NCBI GenBank assembly: GCA_003331265.1
Contig: QOPV01000006.1
Location: 1 to 61,498, forward strand
Length of the DNA: 61,498 nucleotides
DNA from: Cryomorphaceae bacterium
Lineage (GTDB): Bacteria > Bacteroidota > Bacteroidia > Flavobacteriales > Flavobacteriaceae
Direction: 5' to 3'
The notes below the pieces were generated by a model. It saw only the letters and a program-made list of their open reading frames with translations. It did no database searches and was not told the origin of the DNA. A program made the position numbers and the translations under genes. Below, in pieces: positions 4,507 through 61,173 of this stretch (the stretch's first letter is position 1; each line of letters starts with the position of its first letter).

Positions 4507-5229
4507 ATGAAGCCAAATCAAAAGCTAGATCTTCCAAAAAAGGCACAGATTCAAGACATGTTTGATTCTATCTCTATTGAGTATGATTTTTTAAATCGAT
4601 TAATGACTTTTGGAAATGATGTGAAGTGGAGAAAAAAAATCTATACCATTGCAAAATCTTATAACCCAAAAAATATTTTGGATATTGCTACTGGAACCGC
4701 TGACATTGCTCTAGAAATGTCTAAAATTGAAGGCTCTAATATAATCGGACTTGATATTTCAGAAAAAATGTTAGAGGTTGGGAGAAGAAAAGTTAGCAAA
4801 AAAAACCTATCAGATAAAATAACTTTAATTTCAGGAGATGCTGAAAACATTGATTTTAAAAATGAAGAATTTGATTTAGTAACTATTGGTTTTGGGGTTA
4901 GAAATTTTCAAGACTTAGAAAAAGGATTAAAAGAAAGTCATCGGGTGTTGAACCAAGGGGGAAAATTGATTGTTTTAGAAACATCTGTTCCTGAGAACTC
5001 AATAATTAAATTTTTTTACTTTCTTTTTAGTAAATCTTTTATACCATTTATGGGTTCTATATTTTCTAAAGACAAGACAGCCTACCAGTACCTTCAGAAG
5101 TCTGCTGAAAAATTTCCAAGTGGCAAAAAGTTCGTTTCTGTTTTAAAAAAGTGTGGTTTCACTAACGTCATGGTAAAACCTCAAATGCTGGGTGCAACAT
5201 CCATTTATATTGCTAATAAAAAAGATTAA
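4507..5229 (+). CDS. ubiE: Demethylmenaquinone methyltransferase (UbiE/MenG)
   Basis: A 240-residue SAM-dependent methyltransferase catalysing the last step of menaquinone synthesis, C-methylation of demethylmenaquinone. The SAM site is motif I ILDIATGTADIALEM (about residues 57-71), with GLDISEKMLEVGRRK and FDLVTIGFGVRNFQDL further on; GFGVRNF is characteristic of the UbiE/COQ5 family. The C-terminus has YQYLQKSAEKFPSGKKF, another family signature. Length is typical. Because all neighbours are menaquinone genes, the MenG role is favoured over a ubiquinone role. It is first in a run of seven men genes and is preceded by a -7 promoter box at 4479-4486. Confidence 0.95.
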   Translation: MKPNQKLDLPKKAQIQDMFDSISIEYDFLNRLMTFGNDVKWRKKIYTIAKSYNPKNILDIATGTADIALEMSKIEGSNIIGLDISEKMLEVGRRKVSKKNLSDKITLISGDAENIDFKNEEFDLVTIGFGVRNFQDLEKGLKESHRVLNQGGKLIVLETSVPENSIIKFFYFLFSKSFIPFMGSIFSKDKTAYQYLQKSAEKFPSGKKFVSVLKKCGFTNVMVKPQMLGATSIYIANKKD

Positions 5230-5245
5230 AAACCTAGAGCTAATT

Positions 5246-6292
5246 ATGATTTCTTGTCCTGATTTTTTTTTAAGGTTAAATTTCTTTTATAATCAAAAAA
5301 CTCCTTTTGTTTGCTTTAGATTACCAGGCACAAATACTTTAAAATGCTATAACGGAAAAGAACAAAAAATCAACCACAAAGCTTTTCCTAAAGACCCTGG
5401 TTTTATAATGATGCCTTTTGATAAAAGTAAGGAGGGATATTTTATATCAAGTAAAACAATGTTTGAGGCCAAAATCCTTTCAGATTCTTTAAAGAACTCT
5501 TTAACTGAAGAATTTAATCAACAAGAAAAGTTTAATTCACATAAAGAAAATTACTTAAAAAAAATAGTTGATATAAAAAACACAATATCAAAAACCGAAT
5601 TGATTAAGGTTGTATATTCTAACAGTTTTGAGCTGGATTTAATTGAAAATAATTTCGAAGCTTATTTCAAAAAACTATTAAGATTACATAAGGATGCTTT
5701 TTGTTATCTATTTTATATTCCTAACGAAGGTTATTGGATGGGCGCAAGCCCAGAAACTCTTTTAGAAGTTCAAGATAAAAAAATCACTACTATGGCGCTT
5801 GCTGGAACTAAAAAAAGAAACGTAGTTCGTTGGGGAAATAAAGAAATTCTTGAACAAAAAATCGTGAAAGATGAAATTAAGAAAAGGTTAACTCCTTTAT
5901 GTAAAAATCTTGAAACTACAAATTCCAGTACCATAAAGGCTGGAGGTATCGATCATTTAAAAACCACTATTTCTGGAACAACAATTTCTAGTCCTAGCCA
6001 GATTATAAATGCTATTCATCCAACGCCAGCAGTTGGTGGAGCCCCTAAGGAAAAGGCTCTTTTAATTATTAAAAAAGAAGAATCTCACAACCGATCTTTT
6101 TACTCTGGATATTTGGGTGAAATAGATAATATGAACTGTAAGCTTTTTGTAAACCTAAGATGTGTTCATGTTAAAATAAATAAAGCTAAAATATTTGTTG
6201 GTGGAGGAATAACTGTAGACAGTAAGCCTGAAAAAGAATGGGAAGAAATAATCAATAAATCGCAAACAATATTGAAAGCTCTTTTTAGGTAG
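5246..6292 (+). CDS. menF: Isochorismate synthase (MenF)
   Basis: A 348-residue chorismate-binding enzyme that converts chorismate to isochorismate, the entry step of menaquinone synthesis. Family motifs are GASPETLLEV, MALAGTKKR, HPTPAVGGAPKEKAL, FYSGYLGEID, LFVNLRCVHV and GGGITVDSKPEKEW, the last holding the conserved C-terminal Glu/Lys active-site region. I chose ATG 5246, 16 nt after the ubiE stop. The frame also opens at GTG 5192 inside ubiE, but that adds 18 residues unlike the family. No PaaI-type thioesterase gene lies next to it, although such a gene often does in relatives. Confidence 0.93.
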   Translation: MISCPDFFLRLNFFYNQKTPFVCFRLPGTNTLKCYNGKEQKINHKAFPKDPGFIMMPFDKSKEGYFISSKTMFEAKILSDSLKNSLTEEFNQQEKFNSHKENYLKKIVDIKNTISKTELIKVVYSNSFELDLIENNFEAYFKKLLRLHKDAFCYLFYIPNEGYWMGASPETLLEVQDKKITTMALAGTKKRNVVRWGNKEILEQKIVKDEIKKRLTPLCKNLETTNSSTIKAGGIDHLKTTISGTTISSPSQIINAIHPTPAVGGAPKEKALLIIKKEESHNRSFYSGYLGEIDNMNCKLFVNLRCVHVKINKAKIFVGGGITVDSKPEKEWEEIINKSQTILKALFR

Positions 6293-38561: not shown

Positions 38562-38999
38562 CTACTGTAAGTACATCGCATAATGCGGAATGCCGTCTTC
38601 CATGTATTCTTTTCCTTTAACCAGGAACCCATGGGAGGAATAAAAATCTTTTAAATATGATTGGGCTGAGATTTTTATCGGAGATTGTTTGTTTGTTTTT
38701 AAATGCTCTAAAGACTTTTTAACTAGAAGGTGTCCATACCCCTCGCCTCTGTGTGTTTTTTTAACTACCGCTCTACCAAAGGATGCCTCTTTAAAATAAA
38801 TATTTTCATTAAAAACCCTAGTGTAGCCAACAAGCTTATTATTAATGACTAATAAGACATGGTCTGCTTTTTCGTCTTTTCCATCAACGTCTTGGTATAC
38901 ACACTCTTGTTCTACTATAAAAACTTCTGATCTTAAACTAAAAATATCGTTAATTTCTTTCCTTGAAAGCTGTTCCCAAGTTTTTATTTCTAATTTCAT
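38562..38999 (-). CDS. ElaA-like GNAT N-acetyltransferase
   Basis: A 145-residue GNAT-fold protein of the ElaA branch. The N-terminus IFSLRSEVFIVEQECVYQDV and DGKDEKADH are ElaA signatures. The acetyl-CoA loop is in GRAVVKKTHRGEGYGHLLV (family R/Q-x-x-G-x-G/A). The substrate of ElaA proteins is not established. It converges on rnpA and lies 9 bp downstream of rpiB on the same strand. Confidence 0.9.
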   Translation of the reverse strand: MKLEIKTWEQLSRKEINDIFSLRSEVFIVEQECVYQDVDGKDEKADHVLLVINNKLVGYTRVFNENIYFKEASFGRAVVKKTHRGEGYGHLLVKKSLEHLKTNKQSPIKISAQSYLKDFYSSHGFLVKGKEYMEDGIPHYAMYLQ

Positions 39000-39008
39000 T
39001 AAGCCCTT

Positions 39009-39437
39009 TTATTTATTTATTTTATTTACCCTTCTTTCGTGTCTTCCTCCTTCAAAGTCTGTTTTTAAAAAAACCTCTACTATTTCTAAGGCTTGTTTAA
39101 TTGAAAGAAACCTTGCTGGTAAGCTTAATATGTTTGCGTCGTTGTGTTTTCTTATTAGTTCAGCTATTTCTTTGCTCCAACATAATCCAGCCCTAACCCC
39201 TTTATATTTATTAGCTACCATACTAACGCCATTTCCTGTTCCACACATAATAATTCCTATTTTCTCTTTATTATTAGAAATTTCTTTTGCAAGAGGGTGA
39301 ATAATGTCTGGATAATCAACACTATCTCCTGAGTTGTCTCCTAAATTTACTACAACATGTCCTTTCTTTTTTAAAAACCTATCGACAGCATTTTTTAGTT
39401 CAACCCCTGCGTGATCGTTTGAAATAAGTATATTCAT
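39009..39437 (-). CDS. rpiB: Ribose-5-phosphate isomerase B
   Basis: A 142-residue RpiB/LacAB-fold isomerase interconverting ribose 5-phosphate and ribulose 5-phosphate. It begins ILISNDHAGVELKNAV and has the active-site segment GIIMCGTGNGVSMVANK with the catalytic Cys and the GTGNG anion loop, then AGLCWSKEIAELIRKHNDAN. Length is typical. It is followed 9 bp later by the ElaA acetyltransferase gene. Upstream is the 392-bp AT-rich spacer shared with rnr. Confidence 0.95.
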   Translation of the reverse strand: MNILISNDHAGVELKNAVDRFLKKKGHVVVNLGDNSGDSVDYPDIIHPLAKEISNNKEKIGIIMCGTGNGVSMVANKYKGVRAGLCWSKEIAELIRKHNDANILSLPARFLSIKQALEIVEVFLKTDFEGGRHERRVNKINK

Positions 39438-39829
39438 TGTGTTTATTAATTGTTTACTTTATTTAATAACTCTGTTAACTTAATGGTTTTTTAAAATTAA
39501 TTCTCTTTTGTCATTATTTGTTATCTGTTTAGTAACAATATTAACTCAATTATTAACATTTAATTTAATTTTTATTATTAACACTTTTTTATATTAACAG
39601 AATACTAATAAATATATAGTATATTGATTATCAGTTTTTTATTTTATTTTATTTGTTAATAACCGTTTAATACTTTATAAAAATTATTTGATTTTTTTCT
39701 TTTATAGTATAAATTAACATGCAATCATAGGTTTAAAATTTATATTTAAAATTTACTTAATATATAATGTTTGTTCATTACTATTTTTATACCTCACTTT
39801 AAGTTAAATAAAATTAACTTAGCAGTTCA
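39438..39829. other. 392-bp AT-rich divergent spacer with repeated TTATTAACA
   Basis: The only gene-free stretch over 300 bp. It is extremely AT-rich and separates divergent rpiB and rnr. It holds TTATTAACA at 39550-39558 and 39575-39583, the near copy ATATTAACA at 39591-39599 and the reverse complement TGTTAATAA at 39654-39662; AATTAAC recurs near 39711 and 39810. No frame longer than a few codons stands out, and there is no exact DnaA box (TTATCCACA). It must hold the promoters of both genes. It could bind a regulator or be an unwinding element; neither is shown. Confidence 0.5.
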
Positions 39830-41950
39830 ATGAAAAAAAAAGATAATAATTTATTAAGTAATCACCTTTTATCTTTTTTTAAAAAATCACCCAAAAAAAA
39901 GTATAATTATAGGCAGTTATTAAGCCAATTACCTTACCAAGTAAAAAACAATGAAGTAAAAGAGGCGTTGTTTTTGTTAGAACAAAGAAAAAAAATTAAA
40001 CAAATTAATCCAGGCAGCTATATTTTAAACAAAACCAATAAAACTCTTGAGGGTTTTCTAGACAAAACAAATAACGGGTCAGGCTATATAGTAAGAAAGG
40101 AAGTTGAAAAAGATGTTTATGTTTCTGAAAAAAACATGTTAAATGCTTTTGATGGAGATTTAGTTCAGTTTGTAATGATATCAAATAGAGAGGCTAAAAT
40201 TATTAACATAAAAAAAAGAAAGAAAATTAATTTCGTTGGAGTAACAAAAATAATATCCAATAAACTTTTTGTTTCCACAACTGGAAAAAAAGATAAAGTA
40301 GACTTTATTATTAATGAACAAAAAACAATAAAAGAAAACCAGCTTGTTGTGGTTGGCTTTTTAAACTGGAATAATCAATACCCAGAAGCAAAAATTATAA
40401 AAATAATAGGAGAACAAGGATTGGTAGATAATGAAATACATGCTATTTTACAAGAGTATAATCTACCCTATGAATTTTCGAATGATTTAATAAAAGAAGC
40501 AGAGAGTTTAAAAAAACTACAAAATAAAGAAGAAACAAAAAAGAGAAAGGATTTAAGAGATATAAATACGATAACAATTGATCCGGACGACGCAAAAGAT
40601 TTTGATGATGCAATTTCAGTAGAGATCAAACAAAATAAAATTGAAATTGGTATTCATATAGCAGACGTTTCGCATTTCTTAACAAAAGATTCAATTTTAG
40701 ACAAAGAAGCTTACAAAAGGGGAACGTCCGTTTATTTAGTTGACAGGGTTGTACCAATGCTTCCCGAGTCACTCTCAAATAATTTATGTTCTTTAAGGCC
40801 AAAAGAAGATAAATACACCTTTTCAGCATTATTCACATTTAATAAAAAATTTCAAATTGAAGAACAATGGTTTGGTAAAGCAGTAATTAATTCAAATCAA
40901 AGACTTAGTTATAATGAAGCACAATACATAATTGAAAACAATACTGTAATAATTCCGAAGGAGGTGTCATTATCTAGAGAAATGCACCATATTGAAAAGG
41001 AAATTAAAGACTCAATTATATTATTAAATAAAATAGCAACAGATTTAAGAGCTAAAAGAATAAACAAAGGTTCAATATTATTCAATAAAAAGGAAGTAAA
41101 GTTTATTTTAAATAATGAAAAAGAACCAATAGATACGATAGTGAAAGAATCAAAAGCCTCTAACAAGCTGGTCGAAGAGTTTATGCTGTTAGCTAACAAA
41201 AAAGTAGCAGAAATATTTTTAAAACAAAAAAACAAAAAAAATATTTACAGAATTCATGATCATCCTGATGAGGAAAAGTTAATAGCGTTAGAGAGAATAA
41301 TTAAAAACCTAGGCTATAAAAACCGATTCGAAAGTTATAAAAACCTACACCAGAACATAAATGATCTTTTAAAAAAAGTAGAAAAAACACCAGAAAAAAA
41401 CTTAATAGATACTTTAGTTATCAGAAGCATGAGTAAAGCTAAATACAGTTCACAAAACATAGGCCATTTTGGTTTGTCTTTCGAAAAATACACGCATTTT
41501 ACCTCCCCAATTAGAAGATACCCTGATGTTATTGTTCACAGAAACCTAGAAAACATTTTAAATAACAGCCAAAAACAAAACAAAAATCTAGAAGACCAGT
41601 GTCTTTATTTATCGTCGAGAGAAGAACTCTCTACGAAAGCAGAAAGAAGTTCTATTAAGTTTATGCAAGTCAAATACATGTCTTCAAAAATTAATAAAAA
41701 ATACACTGGCGTTGTTTCAGGAATAATGGAAAGGGGTGTTTTTATAGAAATTAAAAAAAACAAATGCGAAGGTTTTATTAAAGCTAAAGATATACCAGGA
41801 GATTATTTTGTGTTTAAAGAAAAAGAATTTTTAATGATGGGAAGAAACACAAAAGAAGAATATAGGCTTGGAGATGAAGTTTTAGTAAAAGTTAAAGGGG
41901 TTAATGAAAACAAAAAACAAATTGATTTTTTATTATTGGAAAAGCTTTAG
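39830..41950 (+). CDS. rnr: Ribonuclease R
   Basis: A 706-residue 3'-5' exoribonuclease. The N-terminal winged-helix-like and cold-shock regions (SQLPYQVKNNEVKEALFLL, GFLDKTNNGSGYIVRKE) precede an RNB domain with the four-Asp catalytic signature TIDPDDAKDFDDAISV and the C-terminal signature HFTSPIRRYPDVIVHR. An S1 domain follows (YTGVVSGIMERGVFIEI), with a short tail. It degrades structured RNA. The gene looks more AT-rich than its neighbours and the protein is unusually rich in Lys, Asn and Ile. LysE starts 21 nt downstream. Confidence 0.94.
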   Translation: MKKKDNNLLSNHLLSFFKKSPKKKYNYRQLLSQLPYQVKNNEVKEALFLLEQRKKIKQINPGSYILNKTNKTLEGFLDKTNNGSGYIVRKEVEKDVYVSEKNMLNAFDGDLVQFVMISNREAKIINIKKRKKINFVGVTKIISNKLFVSTTGKKDKVDFIINEQKTIKENQLVVVGFLNWNNQYPEAKIIKIIGEQGLVDNEIHAILQEYNLPYEFSNDLIKEAESLKKLQNKEETKKRKDLRDINTITIDPDDAKDFDDAISVEIKQNKIEIGIHIADVSHFLTKDSILDKEAYKRGTSVYLVDRVVPMLPESLSNNLCSLRPKEDKYTFSALFTFNKKFQIEEQWFGKAVINSNQRLSYNEAQYIIENNTVIIPKEVSLSREMHHIEKEIKDSIILLNKIATDLRAKRINKGSILFNKKEVKFILNNEKEPIDTIVKESKASNKLVEEFMLLANKKVAEIFLKQKNKKNIYRIHDHPDEEKLIALERIIKNLGYKNRFESYKNLHQNINDLLKKVEKTPEKNLIDTLVIRSMSKAKYSSQNIGHFGLSFEKYTHFTSPIRRYPDVIVHRNLENILNNSQKQNKNLEDQCLYLSSREELSTKAERSSIKFMQVKYMSSKINKKYTGVVSGIMERGVFIEIKKNKCEGFIKAKDIPGDYFVFKEKEFLMMGRNTKEEYRLGDEVLVKVKGVNENKKQIDFLLLEKL

Positions 41951-47417: not shown

Positions 47418-47432
47418 ATGTTTCTGAAACAT
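47418..47432. promoter_or_regulatory. Perfect 15-bp palindrome in the gltX-ybeY spacer
   Basis: ATGTTTCTGAAACAT is a perfect inverted repeat (ATGTTTC/GAAACAT around one T). It lies in the divergent gltX-ybeY region, 86 nt upstream of the gltX ATG on the other strand. It resembles an operator for a dimeric regulator. It also contains parS-like half-sites TGTTTC/GAAACA but with 1 nt instead of 4 between them. Confidence 0.35.
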
Positions 47433-47528
47433 AATCACGGCATCAGACTTGGTAAAGAGGTGTTTAAGATTTTTATTTTGCCTAATATAAAAAAAGATGA
47501 ACAAGTTTCATTATATGTATCAAGAAAC

Positions 47529-47536
47529 TATATTTG
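47529..47536 (+). promoter_or_regulatory. -7 promoter box upstream of ybeY-mnmG
   Basis: TATATTTG matches TAnnTTTG and ends 13 nt before ATG 47550 of ybeY. It lies inside the longer in-frame extension from 47418, so it supports the shorter ybeY start. A T-rich GTTTC at 47505-47509 may be a poor -33 element. Confidence 0.5.
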
Positions 47537-47549
47537 CAAAAAACATTTA

Positions 47550-47972
47550 ATGCCAATACAGTACGTTTATAACACCGACTTCAAGCTTCAAAACGAACAA
47601 GAGTTATCGTCATGGCTTAATAAAGTTATTAAATCAGAAAAACGCGTTTTAGGGGACCTAACATATGCTTTTTTTAACGATGAGGGCTTAAAAAAGATTA
47701 ATGTAAAACACTTGAATCGGGACTATTACACTGATGTGATATCCTTCGATGATTCCTCGAATGAAGTTATCAATGGTAATATTGCAATTTCAGTTGACAG
47801 GGTTAAAGAAAACGCTAAAGATTATAATTGTGATTTTCGCAATGAGATGCTAAGGGTTATGGTTCACGGCTTATTGCACTTTATGGGCTTTAATGATAAA
47901 ACTAAAAAGCAAAAGTTTTCGATGAAGAAAGCTGAAAACGAAAAAATTAACATGTTCCACGTGGAACACTAA
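47550..47972 (+). CDS. ybeY: Endoribonuclease YbeY, rRNA maturation factor
   Basis: A 140-residue zinc endoribonuclease for 16S rRNA 3'-end maturation and ribosome quality control. Motifs are LTYAFFNDEGLKKINVKHL, RDYYTDVISFD and MVHGLLHFMGFNDKTKK; the third zinc His of GYDH is absent, as I recall for Bacteroidota. I chose ATG 47550 (MPIQYVYN), 13 nt after a promoter box; the frame is open from 47418, but the first 44 residues are not family-like. The C-terminus MFHVEH is encoded by a parS-like palindrome (47953-47968), so a DNA site shapes the protein tail. mnmG starts 5 nt later. Confidence 0.9.
   Translation: MPIQYVYNTDFKLQNEQELSSWLNKVIKSEKRVLGDLTYAFFNDEGLKKINVKHLNRDYYTDVISFDDSSNEVINGNIAISVDRVKENAKDYNCDFRNEMLRVMVHGLLHFMGFNDKTKKQKFSMKKAENEKINMFHVEH
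47953..47968. other. parS-like ParB binding site 1
   Basis: TGTTCCACGTGGAACA, a perfect 16-bp palindrome. It differs from the Bacillus parS consensus TGTTNCACGTGAAACA at one position, and that change makes it fully symmetric. It lies in the last codons of ybeY, just before mnmG. parS sites usually cluster near oriC. Confidence 0.8.
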
Positions 47973-47977
47973 AGGGT

Positions 47978-49849
47978 ATGTTTAAATCAGAGTATGATGT
48001 AATTGTAGTTGGCGCTGGACACGCCGGGTCGGAAGCTGCCGCCTCCGCCGCCAACATGGGTAGTAAAACACTACTGGTTACAATGAATCTTCAAAATATT
48101 GCGCAAATGTCTTGTAACCCTGCCATGGGGGGAATTGCAAAAGGCCAAATAGTTAGAGAGATAGATGCCCTAGGTGGTTACAGCGGGATTGTAACAGACG
48201 ATTCAGCTATTCAGTTTAAAATGTTAAATATGTCTAAGGGTCCCGCAATGTGGAGTCCAAGAGCTCAGTCTGATCGCATGCGTTTTGCAGAGTGTTGGCG
48301 AGGCATGTTAGAGCAAACTAAAAATCTTGATTTTTATCAAGAAATGGTTTCGGGATTGTTAATAAGTAAAGGAAGTGTAGTTGGCATCAAAACATCCCTA
48401 GGCCTAGAAATAAAATCAAAGTCCGTTGTTTTAACCAATGGAACTTTTCTTAATGGGCTTATTCACATTGGCGAAAAACAGTTTGGTGGCGGTCGTGCAG
48501 GAGAAAAAGCCTCAACTGGTATTACAGAAGAATTAATTGATTATGGTTTTGTTTCAGGAAGGATGAAAACGGGAACGCCTCCACGCGTAGACGGACGCTC
48601 GTTAAACTATAGCTTAATGTCTTCCCAGCCAGGGGACTCAAACCCCGGAAAGTTTTCTTACTCTCAAAGAACCTCCCCACTAACAAAACAGCTTGACTGC
48701 CACATGACTTACACGAGCCCAGAGGTTCATAGTCTTTTGAGAGAAGGCTTTGATAGGTCCCCTATGTTTAATGGATCAATTAATAGTGTAGGGCCCAGAT
48801 ACTGTCCTTCGATTGAAGATAAGATTAACAGATTCTCGGAAAAAGATCGACATCAAATTTTTGTTGAGCCCGAGGGTTGGAACACTGTAGAGGTTTACGT
48901 CAACGGCTTTTCAACCTCTTTACCTGAAGACATACAGTTTAGAGCCTTGTCCTCTGTTAAAGGATTTGAAAAAGTCAAGTTTTTTAGACCGGGCTATGCA
49001 ATAGAGTATGATTATTTTCCGCCTACCCAATTAAAAAATTCACTAGAAACTAAGCCGATTTCAGGTCTTTTCTTCGCGGGGCAAATCAATGGTACCACGG
49101 GATACGAGGAGGCTGCGGCTCAAGGATTGATGGCAGGAATAAATGCTCATTTGTCAATAAACAATAAAGAAGCTTTTGTGTTAAAAAGAAATGAAGCTTA
49201 TATAGGGGTACTTATAGATGACCTTATTACAAAAGGAACAGAAGAGCCATACAGAATGTTTACCTCTAGAGCCGAATACAGAACCTTGTTGAGACAGGAT
49301 AACGCTGACCTAAGGCTAACAGAAATTTCACACACTCTAGGTTTAGCAAGCCAAGAAAGCGTTGGAAGAGTTGAAAAAAAAAGAGCCCAAACAGACTCTT
49401 TTGTTTCTTTTTTTAAAAAAACAAGCGTTAAGCCAGAAGAAATTAACCCAGTCTTAAAACAAAAAAACTCATCTGAGATAAAACAATCCGTCAAGCTTTT
49501 TAAGCTTTTTTCAAGACCCAATATCGGTCTGGAAGATATTTCTAAAGTGCAATCCGTTAAAGATTATTTAGATCACAATCATTTTAACAGTGGTGTTTTG
49601 GAGCAGACAGTAGTTCAGGTCAAATACTCTGGATACATAGAGAAAGAAAAGATTAATGCAGAAAAGTTAAACAACCTGGAAAACATTAAAATTCCAACAA
49701 ACTTTATTTACAAGAAAGTTCACTCCTTATCCTCTGAAGCAATTCAAAAGCTTGAAAAAATCAAACCAACCACTTTGTCGCAAGCGTCTAGAATAAGCGG
49801 AGTTTCTCCAAACGACATAAGTGTTTTGATGGTTTATATGGGGAGGTAG
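47978..49849 (+). CDS. mnmG: tRNA uridine-5-carboxymethylaminomethyl modification enzyme MnmG
   Basis: A 623-residue FAD enzyme (GidA) that with MnmE modifies U34 of several tRNAs. The FAD site is DVIVVGAGHAGSEAAASAAN, followed by SCNPAMGGIAKGQIVREIDA, both MnmG signatures. Others are MKTGTPPRVDGRSL, GPRYCPSIEDKINRF, FFAGQINGTTGYEEAAAQGL and MFTSRAEYRTLLRQDNADLR. Length is standard. It starts 5 nt after ybeY and is bracketed by two parS-like palindromes. In many bacteria mnmG lies close to oriC and parAB, which fits. Confidence 0.97.
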   Translation: MFKSEYDVIVVGAGHAGSEAAASAANMGSKTLLVTMNLQNIAQMSCNPAMGGIAKGQIVREIDALGGYSGIVTDDSAIQFKMLNMSKGPAMWSPRAQSDRMRFAECWRGMLEQTKNLDFYQEMVSGLLISKGSVVGIKTSLGLEIKSKSVVLTNGTFLNGLIHIGEKQFGGGRAGEKASTGITEELIDYGFVSGRMKTGTPPRVDGRSLNYSLMSSQPGDSNPGKFSYSQRTSPLTKQLDCHMTYTSPEVHSLLREGFDRSPMFNGSINSVGPRYCPSIEDKINRFSEKDRHQIFVEPEGWNTVEVYVNGFSTSLPEDIQFRALSSVKGFEKVKFFRPGYAIEYDYFPPTQLKNSLETKPISGLFFAGQINGTTGYEEAAAQGLMAGINAHLSINNKEAFVLKRNEAYIGVLIDDLITKGTEEPYRMFTSRAEYRTLLRQDNADLRLTEISHTLGLASQESVGRVEKKRAQTDSFVSFFKKTSVKPEEINPVLKQKNSSEIKQSVKLFKLFSRPNIGLEDISKVQSVKDYLDHNHFNSGVLEQTVVQVKYSGYIEKEKINAEKLNNLENIKIPTNFIYKKVHSLSSEAIQKLEKIKPTTLSQASRISGVSPNDISVLMVYMGR

Positions 49850-49854
49850 CGGGC

Positions 49855-49870
49855 CGTTCCACGTGGAACA
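49855..49870. other. parS-like ParB binding site 2
   Basis: CGTTCCACGTGGAACA: the central 14 bases (49856-49869) form a perfect palindrome identical to site 1; only the first base differs (C for T). It lies between mnmG and the methyltransferase gene, 1.9 kb from site 1. Confidence 0.75.
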
Positions 49871-49878
49871 TTACAAGT

Positions 49879-50724
49879 ATGAAAAACACAAAAGAATATA
49901 TTAAGGTAAAGGACGAGTTTTTAAGTAAAGAAGTTTTTTCTTTGGCTATAGATGAAGCTGCAGAAATGCTCTTAACATTACCTAAGCCTAAACAAGATAG
50001 GCTTGCGTTTTACTACGACACTCCTAATTATATTTCTCACACAAACAAAGCAAAAGGCTTGTTTTCTAAAATATATTTTTTTTCCAGAAAAGTAATGCTT
50101 TCCGTAAAGCTAAGAATGATATCAAGGTTGTTTTTGAAACCAGGATTAGCGCTGGATGTAGGTTCAGGGACAGGGGTTTTTTTAAATGCTTTAAAAAAAA
50201 GTGGATGGAAGGTAAAAGGCCTTGAGCCTAATAAAATCGCAAAAGAGCGCGCGCAAAAGACAGGGATAGACCATTTAATAAGTCTAAAAAAATTAGACGG
50301 AATACAACAAGATCTTATTACCTTTTGGCACTCTCTAGAACATGTTTACAGTTTAAAAGAAACTATAGATGAGGTGGAAAAAACACTAAGGCCTGGCGGA
50401 GTTTTAATTGTTGCTTGTCCGAATTATACTTCTTGGGACGCTAAATATTATAAAAAAAACTGGGCTGCTTGGGACGTGCCTAGGCATTTGCGGCATTTTT
50501 CGCCAACCTCTCTTCAGCTTCTTTTGGGCCCTAAAGGTTTTACTCAAATAAAAAAACGCCCTCTTTTTCTAGACGCATTTTATGTTTCGATACTTTCAGA
50601 AAAGTCAATGGGTCATCGGTTTAGCTTTGTAAGAGGTTTGGTTATTGGTCTAATATCTAATTTAGTAGGCTGCTTAACAAACAATTACTCTTCTCAGGTT
50701 TATGTTTTTAAAAAACACGTTTAA
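49879..50724 (+). CDS. Class I SAM-dependent methyltransferase
   Basis: A 281-residue protein with a SAM site ALDVGSGTGVFLNALKKSG (about residues 92-110), the acidic-loop region GLEPNKIAKERA, and a C-terminal half with FWHSLEHVYSLKETIDEVEK and PGGVLIVACPNY. These are typical of the UbiG-like or Methyltransf_23 group, which methylates small molecules or lipids. The segment DVPRHLRHFSP is common in members encoded near surface-polysaccharide or housekeeping genes. The substrate is unknown. It follows mnmG by 29 nt and probably shares its transcript. Confidence 0.85.
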   Translation: MKNTKEYIKVKDEFLSKEVFSLAIDEAAEMLLTLPKPKQDRLAFYYDTPNYISHTNKAKGLFSKIYFFSRKVMLSVKLRMISRLFLKPGLALDVGSGTGVFLNALKKSGWKVKGLEPNKIAKERAQKTGIDHLISLKKLDGIQQDLITFWHSLEHVYSLKETIDEVEKTLRPGGVLIVACPNYTSWDAKYYKKNWAAWDVPRHLRHFSPTSLQLLLGPKGFTQIKKRPLFLDAFYVSILSEKSMGHRFSFVRGLVIGLISNLVGCLTNNYSSQVYVFKKHV

Positions 50725-55826: not shown

Positions 55827-57326
55827 ATGAGCGTAAAAGGATTAGCAGCAAAATTTTTAGCAAAATTTTTTGTTTGGAAAATCAGAAAATGGTCAAAAAA
55901 CCCAATTGAAACTCAAAATAAAGTTTTCAGACAATTAATATTTAATGGCAAAAACACTGACTTTGGAAAAGACCATAACTTTTATAAAATTAATTCACAT
56001 TCTGAGTTTATTGCAAATGTTAAAGTAAAAGATTATGAGGGCCTATTGCCATATATTGAAAGAATATTGAAAGGAGAAAAAGATGTTTTATGGCCAGGAA
56101 AACCAGTTTATCTTGCAAAAACATCAGGAACAACCTCTGGAATAAAACATATTCCAATAACTAAGGAATCGATGCCTACACATGTTAACGGGTCAAGGGA
56201 TGCAATTTTTCATTATATAAATGAAACAGGTAAAACAGGTTTCTTAAAAAGAAAAGTAATTTTTTTACAAGGCAGCCCTATTTTAAAAGAATTAAACGGG
56301 ATTAAAACTGGACGACTTTCGGGAATTGTTGCTCATTATACACCTTCTTATTTAAAAACGAACATTATGCCTAGTTGGAAATCAAACTGTATTGAAGACT
56401 GGGAAAAAAAGGTTGAAGAAATAACAAACGAAACAATAAATGAGGATATGGCAGTAATAGGGGGAATCCCGCCATGGGTTCAAATGTATTTCGAAAAATT
56501 AAAAAAAGTATCAGGTAAAAAAACAATATCTGAATTATTTCCAAATTTTAAGCTATTTGTCTATGGGGGCGTGAATTATGAACCATACAGAAATACCTTT
56601 AACAAACTAATTGGAAAAAAAATAGATACTTTGGAATATTTTCCTGCTTCAGAGGGTTTTTTCGCGTATCAGGATTCTCAAAAATCAAATGGATTACTTC
56701 TTCAGTTAAATTCTGGTATTTTTTATGAATTCATTAAGCTCAAGGATATGGGTTTGGAAAACCCAAAAAGATACACAGTTGAAAATGTTACAAAAGACAC
56801 TAATTATGTGCTAATTATTTCTACTAATGCTGGTTTGTGGGCATATAATACAGGCGATACCATTGCTTTTACTTCATTGTTTCCACACAGAATAATTGTA
56901 ACAGGCAGATATAAACATTTTATTTCTGCTTTTGGAGAACATGTAATAGCAAGCGAAGTGGAAAAATCTTTAAAGCTTGCCTTAGAAAAACAGCCTTTTG
57001 AGGTAAATGAGTTCTGTGTTGTGCCACAGGTTACTCCAAAAAAAGGCCTACCCTTTCACGAGTGGTGGATAGAGTTTAAAAAACCACCAAGCAAAAGTGA
57101 GGTTAAAAAATTATCTGCCGCCTTAGATTATCACATGCAAATCAATAACATTTATTATAAAGATTTGATTGAGGGAAAGATCTTAAAGGAATTAGAGATC
57201 ATTGTTTTGAAGGAAGGTGTTTTTAAAAAATATATGAAAAGCAAAGGAAAACTGGGGGGGCAAAACAAACTGCCAAGATTATCAAACGACAGAACAGTAG
57301 TTGAGGAGATTGTTCTGAAAAACTAA
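55827..57326 (+). CDS. GH3 (auxin-responsive promoter) family adenylating protein
   Basis: A 499-residue protein with the GH3 fold of the acyl-adenylate superfamily. The ATP loop is LAKTSGTTSGIKHIPITKE, followed by IGGIPPWVQMYFEKL, FVYGGVNYEPY, EYFPASEGFFAYQ and the C-terminal ITGRYKHFISAFGEH-like VTGRYKHFISAFGEHV. Plant GH3 enzymes conjugate amino acids to hormones; the bacterial reaction is unknown, presumably adenylation of a carboxylic acid and transfer to an amine or thiol. It is probably cotranscribed with the M23 gene (6-nt gap). Its end overlaps the convergent propeller gene by 4 bp. Confidence 0.9.
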   Translation: MSVKGLAAKFLAKFFVWKIRKWSKNPIETQNKVFRQLIFNGKNTDFGKDHNFYKINSHSEFIANVKVKDYEGLLPYIERILKGEKDVLWPGKPVYLAKTSGTTSGIKHIPITKESMPTHVNGSRDAIFHYINETGKTGFLKRKVIFLQGSPILKELNGIKTGRLSGIVAHYTPSYLKTNIMPSWKSNCIEDWEKKVEEITNETINEDMAVIGGIPPWVQMYFEKLKKVSGKKTISELFPNFKLFVYGGVNYEPYRNTFNKLIGKKIDTLEYFPASEGFFAYQDSQKSNGLLLQLNSGIFYEFIKLKDMGLENPKRYTVENVTKDTNYVLIISTNAGLWAYNTGDTIAFTSLFPHRIIVTGRYKHFISAFGEHVIASEVEKSLKLALEKQPFEVNEFCVVPQVTPKKGLPFHEWWIEFKKPPSKSEVKKLSAALDYHMQINNIYYKDLIEGKILKELEIIVLKEGVFKKYMKSKGKLGGQNKLPRLSNDRTVVEEIVLKN

Positions 57327-58678
57327 GGTTTAATTATAAGTTTAAACTTGTCTTGCAACACGTAAACAACCTGTCTTGAATCTAAACTATCACTTTTTTT
57401 AATGATCAAGTCATTTCCAAAGACATCTTTAAACTTTTCATTAAAGTCTAGAATTAATTTATTTTTCTTTTTTATCACAGCATCTAAAGACTTAGTCTCG
57501 TCAGAGAAAAGACTTAAAACCAAGGCATTTTCTAAATAGTTGTTAAGACCAAAAGCTTTTAACAATTTGAATTCATCACTGAGAATAATAATTGAGGAAG
57601 AATCATTGAACAAAGAATCACTAGTTAAATATAAAAGAGTCTTTTTTGTTTTAAAATAGAAAAATGTAATTAGAATAAATGCAATTATAAATAGTCCTGC
57701 AAAAATGAAATATCTTTTGAAAAGATATTTGTCATCCAATATAAATAATTCTTGTCCAGAAAAATCAAAAGAATGAATATCAACATAGGAAACCTTATAT
57801 TTTAATCTGTCAGCAGTTTTCGATGAATAAACCAAATAGTTTCCAACTAAAATTCCTTTTGGGCCTAGCTGTGTAAGCCTATTGTTTGAATTGTACCTTA
57901 AAACACTGTTTTCGACAGGGTTTGTTATTGTATAAAAAAGATCATTAGGATATTTTAGAAATATAGAGCCGGAAAAGTTAATTCTACTTGATCCAAAAAC
58001 ATTCTCAATTTTTGTTTCTTTACGATCTGCCAACATTCCCTTTTTGAACCATTCTAATTTTGAAAGATCAAGTTCAAATAAATTTTGATTTTGCTTATCA
58101 ACGCTTGAAGAAGAGCTTCTAGTGTAAAAATCATAGACAAGAATACTATCCCCCCTTTTAATAAAAGAACCTTGATTAATTCCACCCTTTGGGGCAGAGC
58201 CCTTTGTTGGGACAACATCCCAGCTTTTAGACTGAAAATTAAATTTTGTCAAGTAATTTTTTGCTTCCCAGTAGCCATACCCCCCTAAAAGATATAGTTC
58301 GTTTTTATGTGAAAAGAAGAAACCTGAATATTGGTTTCTGTGTGCAAAACTCTCATCAATCCTTATTATTGTATTGTTTTTGAATTGAAACAAGAGTCCA
58401 CCACCTGGGAATAAAAAATAGATAGACCCATCAACCCTAAGAGGGGATAATGTGTTAAAATAAATCCCGGAGAGACTTTTAGGAACTTCTTTGGAATATT
58501 CGGAATATTTTGTAGAATACTCTCCGTCGCCCAGTAATAAAGAAGTATAAACTCCTTTTTTAGTAAAAGCATAAAATGATGTGGAGTCTTTTTCTACCAA
58601 TAGGAAATCTTCAAAATCTTCCTGTCCAAAGGAAAGAATTGAAATCATAAATACACAAATAATGAAAGGAATTTTCAT
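57323..58678 (-). CDS. Propeller-TM-winged-helix protein 1 (unnamed family)
   Basis: A 451-residue protein: signal peptide (MKIPFIICVFMISILSFGQ), a periplasmic Kelch-like propeller domain to about residue 320 (motifs FTKKGVYTSLL, NELYLLGGYGYWEAKNYLT, SKSWDVVPTKG), one membrane helix at 323-342, and a cytoplasmic domain of about 105 residues ending near SLDSRQVVYVL. It shares this layout and several short motifs with the gene at 59770-61173, although overall identity looks low. The last domain resembles a winged helix, its wing resembling MarR (DPxDRR). It starts inside the phosphoglycosyltransferase gene (ATGA overlap) and may sense an envelope signal; function is inference. Confidence 0.7.
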   Translation of the reverse strand: MKIPFIICVFMISILSFGQEDFEDFLLVEKDSTSFYAFTKKGVYTSLLLGDGEYSTKYSEYSKEVPKSLSGIYFNTLSPLRVDGSIYFLFPGGGLLFQFKNNTIIRIDESFAHRNQYSGFFFSHKNELYLLGGYGYWEAKNYLTKFNFQSKSWDVVPTKGSAPKGGINQGSFIKRGDSILVYDFYTRSSSSSVDKQNQNLFELDLSKLEWFKKGMLADRKETKIENVFGSSRINFSGSIFLKYPNDLFYTITNPVENSVLRYNSNNRLTQLGPKGILVGNYLVYSSKTADRLKYKVSYVDIHSFDFSGQELFILDDKYLFKRYFIFAGLFIIAFILITFFYFKTKKTLLYLTSDSLFNDSSSIIILSDEFKLLKAFGLNNYLENALVLSLFSDETKSLDAVIKKKNKLILDFNEKFKDVFGNDLIIKKSDSLDSRQVVYVLQDKFKLIIKP

Positions 58679-59769: not shown

Positions 59770-61173
59770 TTGAAAACTATTATTAGCATAATAGCATTGT
59801 TTACTTGTTTACAATCAGAAGATTTATTCGCCCAGGATATTCCGCTTCCTGAAAATTTGCCCGACGAATATCTTTTTGGACAAAACCAAAAATCAGATCC
59901 AAAAATCATCACCAAAAAAGGAGTTTATTTGTTTAAAAACAAATGGTCATATAGTGATTATGAAAAGATCTATCCGAATACTTTTATTTTAGAAAACTTA
60001 AATGAATTCAACAACCAAAATTTTAATGTTATAAACGATTCTTTGAGCACTTTAATCATTATTTCGGGCGGAGGCCACGTCTTTTCTTCAACAAAAAAAA
60101 GTATAAAAAGGCTTGATAGTTCAGTGGATCAAAAAAATCAATTTTATTCGTCACTTTTCCTATATAACAATCAAAGCTACATGTACGGTGGCTATGGTTT
60201 TTGGACCTTTAAGGACTATATAACCACGTTTGATAAATCTACGGGTCAGTGGGAGTTAGTTAGTATTAAATCAGATTATGTCCCAGAGGGAAGGTGGAAA
60301 GCCATCTCTCATGTTATGAACGACAAGTTATATGTGCTTGGCGGAAGAAACAGCCCTAAAGAATCTGCCAACAAAGACGTTCCCTTGAATGATTTCTTTT
60401 ATTTTGATTTTTTAAATTCAAAGTTTGTGAACCTTGGCGAAACAAACCAATTAATTCCAACTGTTAACTCTGTAAATTCTAATGTAATAATCAATGAAAA
60501 AAAAGCTTATCTAGATAATGATAAAATTATCATTTTTGATTTTATAAAAGACACAGTAACAAGCTATGTTTCAAAAAACATATTCGAAGGAATTGATTTA
60601 AAAAATCCCGTTGTCAATAGGCAAGATACATTATACTACATTAAAAACGTTAATAATAATAAGCTTTTAGCAAGGTTCCCAATTAATGATTTAAATCAGA
60701 TTAAACCAAAAACTTATTCGATATCATCAAAAAAAGAGCTACCCTATAAATCATATTTCGCTGTAACTTTAGCTGCTTTATTGTGTTGGATAAGCTACAG
60801 GCTGTTTACTTTTAAAGACCATTTGAAGGGCCTTGTCTTGTTTGATGAAAGAAGACTTTATTTTAATCAAAACTCTTCTTTGGTTACGGAAAAACAACTT
60901 CTGTTAATTCAACATTTAGAAAAAAAGAGCTTTATTTCATCAAGTGAACTCAACACTATCATTAGCTCTAAAAAATACGTCAAGTCTCACTTCACCCTAC
61001 TTAGAACAGAATTTATTGAGGAGATCAATATTATTTTAAAAAGCGTTACAGACAATAAAAGAGATCTAATCGAAGAAATTAAGGATCCATTGGACAAAAG
61101 ATATAAAGTTTATAAAATCAACGCACAGATTTCAAAGAGAGAACCCTTTTTAAGCTTTTTATTTAAGATTTAA
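59770..61173 (+). CDS. Propeller-TM-winged-helix protein 2 (unnamed family)
   Basis: A 467-residue protein: signal-like segment (MKTIISIIALFTCLQSEDLFA), a periplasmic Kelch-like domain (IITKKGVYLF, SYMYGGYGFWTFKDYIT, GQWELVSIKSD, KLYVLGGRNS), a membrane helix at about 328-346, and a cytoplasmic domain with SSELNTIISSKKYVKSHFTL and DPLDKRYKVYKIN. The last two look like a recognition helix and MarR-like wing. It is a relative of the gene at 57323-58678. The start is TTG 59770; the signal peptide supports it because no downstream start would keep one. It faces away from the phosphoglycosyltransferase and overlaps wzz by 11 bp at its end. Confidence 0.7.
   Translation: MKTIISIIALFTCLQSEDLFAQDIPLPENLPDEYLFGQNQKSDPKIITKKGVYLFKNKWSYSDYEKIYPNTFILENLNEFNNQNFNVINDSLSTLIIISGGGHVFSSTKKSIKRLDSSVDQKNQFYSSLFLYNNQSYMYGGYGFWTFKDYITTFDKSTGQWELVSIKSDYVPEGRWKAISHVMNDKLYVLGGRNSPKESANKDVPLNDFFYFDFLNSKFVNLGETNQLIPTVNSVNSNVIINEKKAYLDNDKIIIFDFIKDTVTSYVSKNIFEGIDLKNPVVNRQDTLYYIKNVNNNKLLARFPINDLNQIKPKTYSISSKKELPYKSYFAVTLAALLCWISYRLFTFKDHLKGLVLFDERRLYFNQNSSLVTEKQLLLIQHLEKKSFISSSELNTIISSKKYVKSHFTLLRTEFIEEINIILKSVTDNKRDLIEEIKDPLDKRYKVYKINAQISKREPFLSFLFKI

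Follow-up and report, generated by a model that had tools for sequence, protein, structure and literature searches.

Paired palindromes across mnmG as probable parS sites beside the replication origin of a flavobacterial chromosome

What is a pair of matching palindromes doing on either side of a gene for a tRNA-modifying enzyme? The question is raised by a 61,498-nucleotide stretch of DNA from a Cryomorphaceae bacterium (hereafter, the window), in which two sites with a perfect 14-bp palindromic core bracket mnmG, just as a first-pass annotation of the sequence had reported. Our analysis leads to the reading, to which we give a probability of roughly 93%, that the two palindromes are chromosomal parS sites, and hence the centromere, beside a replication origin, with parB and dnaA lying at a distance in the relatives of this species. 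The features concerned are the following.

47418-47972, plus strand: ybeY, rRNA maturation RNase (TIGR00043, 89.3 bits; open reading frame)
47953-47968: putative parS site 1, TGTTCCACGTGGAACA, in the 3' end of ybeY and 9 bp ahead of the mnmG start codon
47978-49849, plus strand: mnmG (gidA), tRNA-modifying enzyme, between both sites (TIGR00136, 837.5 bits; open reading frame)
49855-49870: putative parS site 2, CGTTCCACGTGGAACA, within the 29-bp gap that separates mnmG from the methyltransferase-like gene, 8 bp before the latter
49879-50724, plus strand: methyltransferase-like gene after site 2 (open reading frame; UbiG-type match below cut-off)

The common 14-mer core, GTTCCACGTGGAAC, occupies positions 47954-47967 and 49856-49869, the first copy falling within the site carried by the last codons of ybeY (M-F-H-V-E-H-stop). 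Two exact copies occur in the window, against none in 100 dinucleotide shuffles, and composition alone predicts 0.00005 per window and 0.001 per assembly; the earlier contention that such a core would not turn up twice in 60 kb by chance is thus borne out for exact matches. Outside the two sites, the window holds no match to GTTCCACGTGGAAC even when three mismatches are allowed, a tolerance at which two matches are not rare by chance (mean 0.81; two or more in 19 of 100 shuffles). Throughout the source assembly (1,532,442 bases or 1.53 Mb, 43 contigs, 79.9% complete), the mnmG pair provides the only matches with zero or one mismatch, and five more appear with two. The degenerate form GTTYCACGTGRAAC adds three further one-mismatch matches in this assembly, each on a separate contig.

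The identity of the palindromes is suggested by their sequence. The parS of Pseudomonas putida and P. aeruginosa is printed as TGTTCCACGTGGAACA, a 16-mer identical to site 1, and that of Myxococcus xanthus as TGTTCCACGTGGAACG, which differs from it at one outer base (PMC7022226). Both have the parS form TGTTNCACGTGNAACA; site 1 agrees with the P. putida version at all 16 positions, and site 2 departs from it at the first outer base. The titles of papers that print the 14-mer GTTCCACGTGGAAC mostly name ParB, parS, ParABS, the centromere, or chromosome segregation or dynamics. The identification as parS is therefore supported by a sequence already published under that name, and the same comparison disposes of the proposal that the symmetric C/G form is special to this lineage (PMC7022226). 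Furthermore, the two positions flanking mnmG are occupied in Chryseobacterium by the canonical TGTTTCACGTGAAACA, a link between the C/G form and the textbook one. The copies are also few and clustered, as is usual of parS, with two lying 1.9 kb apart, similar pairs in relatives and no other exact copy in the assembly. What we have here is most probably an ordinary parS in an unusual layout.

Conservation was assessed by a scan for mnmG that returned at least 591 confirmed relatives, from which the 80 best were taken, every one of them being used, with 'beside mnmG' defined as the 1,000 bp ahead of the gene and the 400 bp past it. Among these best 80 of at least 591 loci, GTTYCACGTGRAAC stands on both sides of mnmG in 63, upstream only in 11, downstream only in three and on neither side in three (L065, L085 and L086); with one mismatch allowed, the corresponding counts in the same set are 70, six, one and three. 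Density tells the same story, with 174 copies in the 111 kb beside mnmG against seven in the remaining 915 kb of the best 80 of at least 591 loci. When up to two free mismatches are permitted, 192 sites are found beside mnmG in this set, and 112 of the 132 differences that they contain are at the one half-site base that is degenerate in parS.

Whole genomes extend this picture. The exact 14-mer GTTCCACGTGGAAC occurs in 57 of 100 genomes, the source assembly included (once in 21, twice in 33, three times in two and four times in one), and a reversed-pattern control matches in one of the 100. The other 43 hold no exact copy, and variants can take its place, as in G015. Across the phylum, among 392 genomes drawn at 95% completeness or above, TGTTYCACGTGRAACA with at most one mismatch is present somewhere in the genome in 361, commonly in two copies; its reversed control at the same tolerance also matches a minority of phylum genomes. 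In the source assembly, in 17 genomes and at the best 80 of at least 591 mnmG loci, the motif is not evenly scattered.

Several relatives elaborate on the pattern. Three Flavobacterium loci (L031, at 4813-5924, L034 and L036) have arrays of parS-like sites before mnmG; that of L031 includes six copies, most of them centred on ACATGG, that repeat at intervals of 116-118 bp between 5339 and 5924. In loci from Tenacibaculum, Kordia, Polaribacter and an uncultured member of the Flavobacteriaceae (L046, L048, L049, L057, L058 and L061), some of the mnmG-side places carry the altered centres CATGTGG, CACATGG, CTCGTGG or CACGAGG, and a drift in ParB specificity in these genera is possible. A near-match, CTTCCACGTGAAAC, was considered as a third parS and rejected. 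It lies about 4.5-5.6 kb after mnmG in seven of the best 80 of at least 591 loci (L009, L010, L013, L014, L017, L020 and L024), and in all seven it encodes the protein motif LPRETAGY.

If the sites mark a centromere, where is the origin? As a general rule, parS sites are found near it (PMC7333895). The source assembly is too fragmented, at 43 contigs, and too weakly skewed to show the origin directly; in the window itself the skew is only faint. Nine single-contig relatives were sampled in 20-kb stretches, twenty evenly spaced stretches each for G034, G043, G052, G088 and G100, and ten each, symmetric about the sites, for G041, G045, G060 and G062. Skew was measured at third codon positions and averaged over both gene strands; gene-strand bias gave no usable origin signal. 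Only in G100 (Polaribacter sp. BM10) was mnmG itself located between the sites; in the other eight, a spacing of 1.9-2.0 kb was the ground for taking them as the mnmG pair, with the exception of G043, in which three sites span 1.6 kb.

In eight of the nine, the skew origin coincides with the sites or is no more than 2.5% of the chromosome from them; two of these are weak fits and four have a resolution of only about 5% of the chromosome, because the samples were centred on the sites. The distance from best origin to sites, as a percentage of the chromosome, is 0.5 in G043, 0.9 in G034, 1.7 in G052 and 2.5 in G100. In G041, G045, G060 and G062, the origin falls in the sampled gap around the sites, with five positive samples on one side and five negative on the other. 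The fits have an R2 of 0.81-0.93 in G034, G041, G045, G052, G060 and G062, 0.60 in G100 (0.45 with the origin fixed exactly at the sites) and 0.30 in G043. Plain GC skew gives a consistent picture apart from G045, whose origin it places 10% away; its fit to G100 is poor (R2 0.22). The exception among the nine is G088, whose skew is weak and whose best origin (R2 0.43) lies 29% from the sites and 4.6% from dnaA. The expectation that a skew origin would be found near the sites thus holds in eight of nine relatives; together with the rarity of the motif and its conservation at mnmG, this supports the proposal that the region is the centromere of the chromosome.

The companion expectation, that dnaA would be close by, fails in these relatives. 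It lies 23.7-49.3% of the chromosome away from the sites in nine of nine genomes, and parB is likewise distant, at 21.6-46.1% in all eight genomes searched (G100 was left out). An arrangement common in other bacteria has parAB adjoining oriC; in the relatives studied here, by contrast, a long stretch of chromosome separates the sites from both parB and dnaA.

This layout has partial precedents. For two other members of the Flavobacteriaceae, Mariniflexile litorale KMM 9835 and Algorimicrobium strain KMM 8389, Ori-Finder together with GC skew locates oriC at mnmG or adjacent to it, and the main text of neither report mentions parS (PMC11278836, PMC12843772). In M. litorale, dnaA is not aligned with the skew, and the figure legend contradicts the text as to which end is oriC (PMC11278836). 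According to a Prevotella genome paper, oriC in the Bacteroidetes is commonly far from dnaA (PMC4755523), and in a flavobacterial endosymbiont that has no dnaA, the skew origin falls in dapB (PMC2768785). In Bacteroides caecimuris and Muribaculum intestinale, which are gut species outside the Flavobacteriales, parS clusters likewise mark the origins by Hi-C, and the report found no known condensin (PMC10197239). In view of these published origins, the layout is in part known.

The protein that would read the sites is widespread. ParB (TIGR00180) was found in 91 of the 100 genomes searched, a set that includes the source assembly, and in 89 it scored above the curated cut-off; among genus mates, 18 of 21 have a ParB above cut-off and three do not. 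Nineteen of 20 fetched ParB loci were aligned to the Caulobacter chain (L111, whose frame was not recovered, was left out), and the equivalents of R173 and G201, residues characteristic of parS-type recognition, are invariant in 19 of 19. A binding site for the protein Noc (NBS), whose type sequence we take to be ATTTCCCGGGAAAT, was also considered and rejected: the window holds no match to it with two or fewer mismatches, and the 19 ParBs of relatives keep R173 and G201 and not the Noc residues Q and R. In Caulobacter ParB, R173 and G201 are described as absolutely conserved in ParB orthologs (PMC7383237).

The source assembly itself, at 80% completeness, yielded no ParB by TIGR00180 or by a profile built from the 19 ParBs (a profile run without a positive control); PF02195 gave matches below cut-off only, and a search for ParA found none. 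In the genus mates G003, G011 and G016, ParA directly precedes ParB. In another mate, G014 (88% complete), ParA and full ParB are both absent. The genes missing from the source assembly are probably assembly gaps, since roughly one gene in five can be expected to be lacking from an assembly of 80% completeness.

These absences are also the starting point for regarding the palindromes as relics, kept by inertia in a species that has lost parAB. The lack of parA and of a full parB in both the source assembly and G014 is what such a loss would leave, but the two assemblies are only 80% and 88% complete, ParB scores above cut-off in 18 of 21 genus mates, and two perfect palindromes suggest selection; we consider this history quite improbable. 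Slightly less credit still is due to an operator reading, in which the palindromes would serve not as a centromere but as targets of a transcription regulator that acts on the ybeY-mnmG-methyltransferase region. Both do adjoin gene starts, lying 9 bp before mnmG and 8 bp before the methyltransferase-like gene. Site 1, however, is a published parS base for base (PMC7022226), the 1 kb preceding mnmG holds as many as seven sites in some loci, and operators would not be expected to coincide with a skew origin.

Two further explanations would locate the constraint in RNA or in protein. A hairpin or terminator in the transcript is scarcely credible: any palindrome can fold, and on the minus strand a terminator-like stem was scored at site 1, but folding is no better than that of shuffles (z -1.28 and +0.14), and the RNA pair is not protected, because 40 of 64 asymmetric mnmG-side sites break it (C-A) while 24 keep a wobble (U-G). 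Nor is there more than a negligible chance that the repeat is maintained by coding for the MFHVEH end of YbeY. Site 1 is in frame in ybeY, and of the 76 relatives that have a site before mnmG, 23 have the closest one within a frame of more than 100 codons, presumably ybeY; the other 53 do not, and site 2 is intergenic. Here the contrast with CTTCCACGTGAAAC, which is coding in every locus that carries it, is instructive.

How parS sites at this position might work can be sketched from other bacteria. ParB nucleates at parS and associates with neighbouring DNA, and ParA moves the resulting complex, while SMC is loaded at parS in many bacteria (PMC7333895). By analogy, we infer ParB binding, loading and segregation, and the presence of parAB, in this species. 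ParB dimers would be loaded at each of the 16-bp sites and extend from there across mnmG and the genes around it to form one partition complex; ParA would then move the newly replicated origin region apart. ParAB and DnaA would act from a distance, parB and dnaA each lying a fifth to half a chromosome away in relatives.

The usual parS-loaded condensin has ScpA as a core part. ScpA was found in none of 17 Flavobacteriales genomes searched, with a control positive in nine of 14, and therefore the SMC-ScpAB branch, judged from the ScpA search, seems to be missing.

The location of the origin can perhaps be narrowed further. Across the mnmG loci as a whole, DnaA boxes of the Escherichia coli type are a poor guide, as the best cluster per 400 bp averages 1.85 boxes in 66 loci longer than 12 kb against 1.69 in 140 control stretches. 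Eight loci from Chryseobacterium, Kaistella and three Cyclobacteriaceae-like genomes (L069, L076, L077, L078, L080, L082, L083 and L084) are richer, with four to seven DnaA-like boxes 2.5-3.8 kb after mnmG. In L076, L078 and L082, the cluster starts in the gap between pgk-like and rpiB-like genes, as judged by eye (in L076 and L078 part of the boxes fall within the rpiB-like frame), and it was these three that drew attention to the rpiB gap in the window, 8 kb upstream of the palindrome pair.

39009-39437, minus strand: rpiB, ribose 5-phosphate isomerase B (PF02502 at 39018-39431, E 3.5e-54; gene ends by eye)
39438-39829: candidate oriC, the gap between divergent rpiB and rnr (392 bp, 85% A+T; TTATTAACA at 39550, 39575 and 39654)
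39830-41950, plus strand: rnr, RNase R-like (PF00773 RNB domain; open reading frame)

An open reading frame on the plus strand at 38845-39300 was discarded as spurious; it has no Pfam match, and the real gene there is rpiB on the minus strand.

The neighbourhood of rpiB and the palindromes recurs in relatives. A search of 30 genomes located rpiB in 26, and where gene and site lie on one contig (22 genomes), rpiB is 3-54 kb from a site in 21 and 419 kb away in G071; of the remaining genomes with rpiB, G004 has its site on another contig, and G006, G008 and G009 have no exact site among those listed. Eleven gaps were read, seven from this genus and four from other genera (590 bases each of the latter, which may include coding sequence). 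They contain 22 copies of TTATTAACA, in 10 of 11 genomes (G011 has none), against 1.8 expected in order-2 Markov sequence (sd 1.3; maximum 7 in 300 trials) and a single copy of the reversed motif, although the seven gap sequences of the genus are not independent, because its members are related. To judge by their likeness to TTATNCACA, which we take to be a DnaA box, the TTATTAACA copies may be DnaA boxes. An A+T-rich gap with repeated DnaA-like boxes is thus present here and in relatives, and we tentatively regard the rpiB-rnr gap as the replication origin of this flavobacterium. Boxes of the Escherichia coli type, presumably TTATCCACA, are another matter: the window has no exact copy and no cluster of three or more such boxes within 500 bp. 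The gap also contains a block, TATTAACAnnCTATnATA, whose loose pattern matched in 10 of 11 genomes (not G062), a count that has no control beside it.

Taken together, the rpiB gap with its TTATTAACA boxes and two parS sites some 1.9 kb apart on either side of mnmG might form a minimal origin-centromere module of the Flavobacteriales, served by unlinked dnaA and parAB and working without SMC-ScpAB, so that ParB would either load an unrecognised condensin or separate origins via ParA alone; we would put this proposal at a little under even odds. The kind of element is already known. The present analysis contributes three points: many Flavobacteriales keep the pair around mnmG, in the closed relatives examined it lies far from both dnaA and parB, and the rpiB gap is put forward as a candidate oriC. 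In the open-licence literature, as far as its accessible text extends, we found no report of parS at a flavobacterial mnmG or of the rpiB gap as an origin, which is not to claim that none is in print.

For a large group whose dnaA is a misleading origin marker, the pair offers a sequence landmark of the replication origin and the centromere, and so can help to orient draft genomes. It also presents a natural case of an unlinked centromere, initiator gene and partition genes, and sharpens the question of what ParB does at parS in a group in which ScpA was not found.

Elsewhere in the window, two divergent proteins of 451 residues (57323-58678, minus strand) and 467 residues (59770-61173, plus strand) share similar wording by eye (LLGGYGYWEAKNY and MYGGYGFWTFKDY) and flank a membrane protein of 353 residues.
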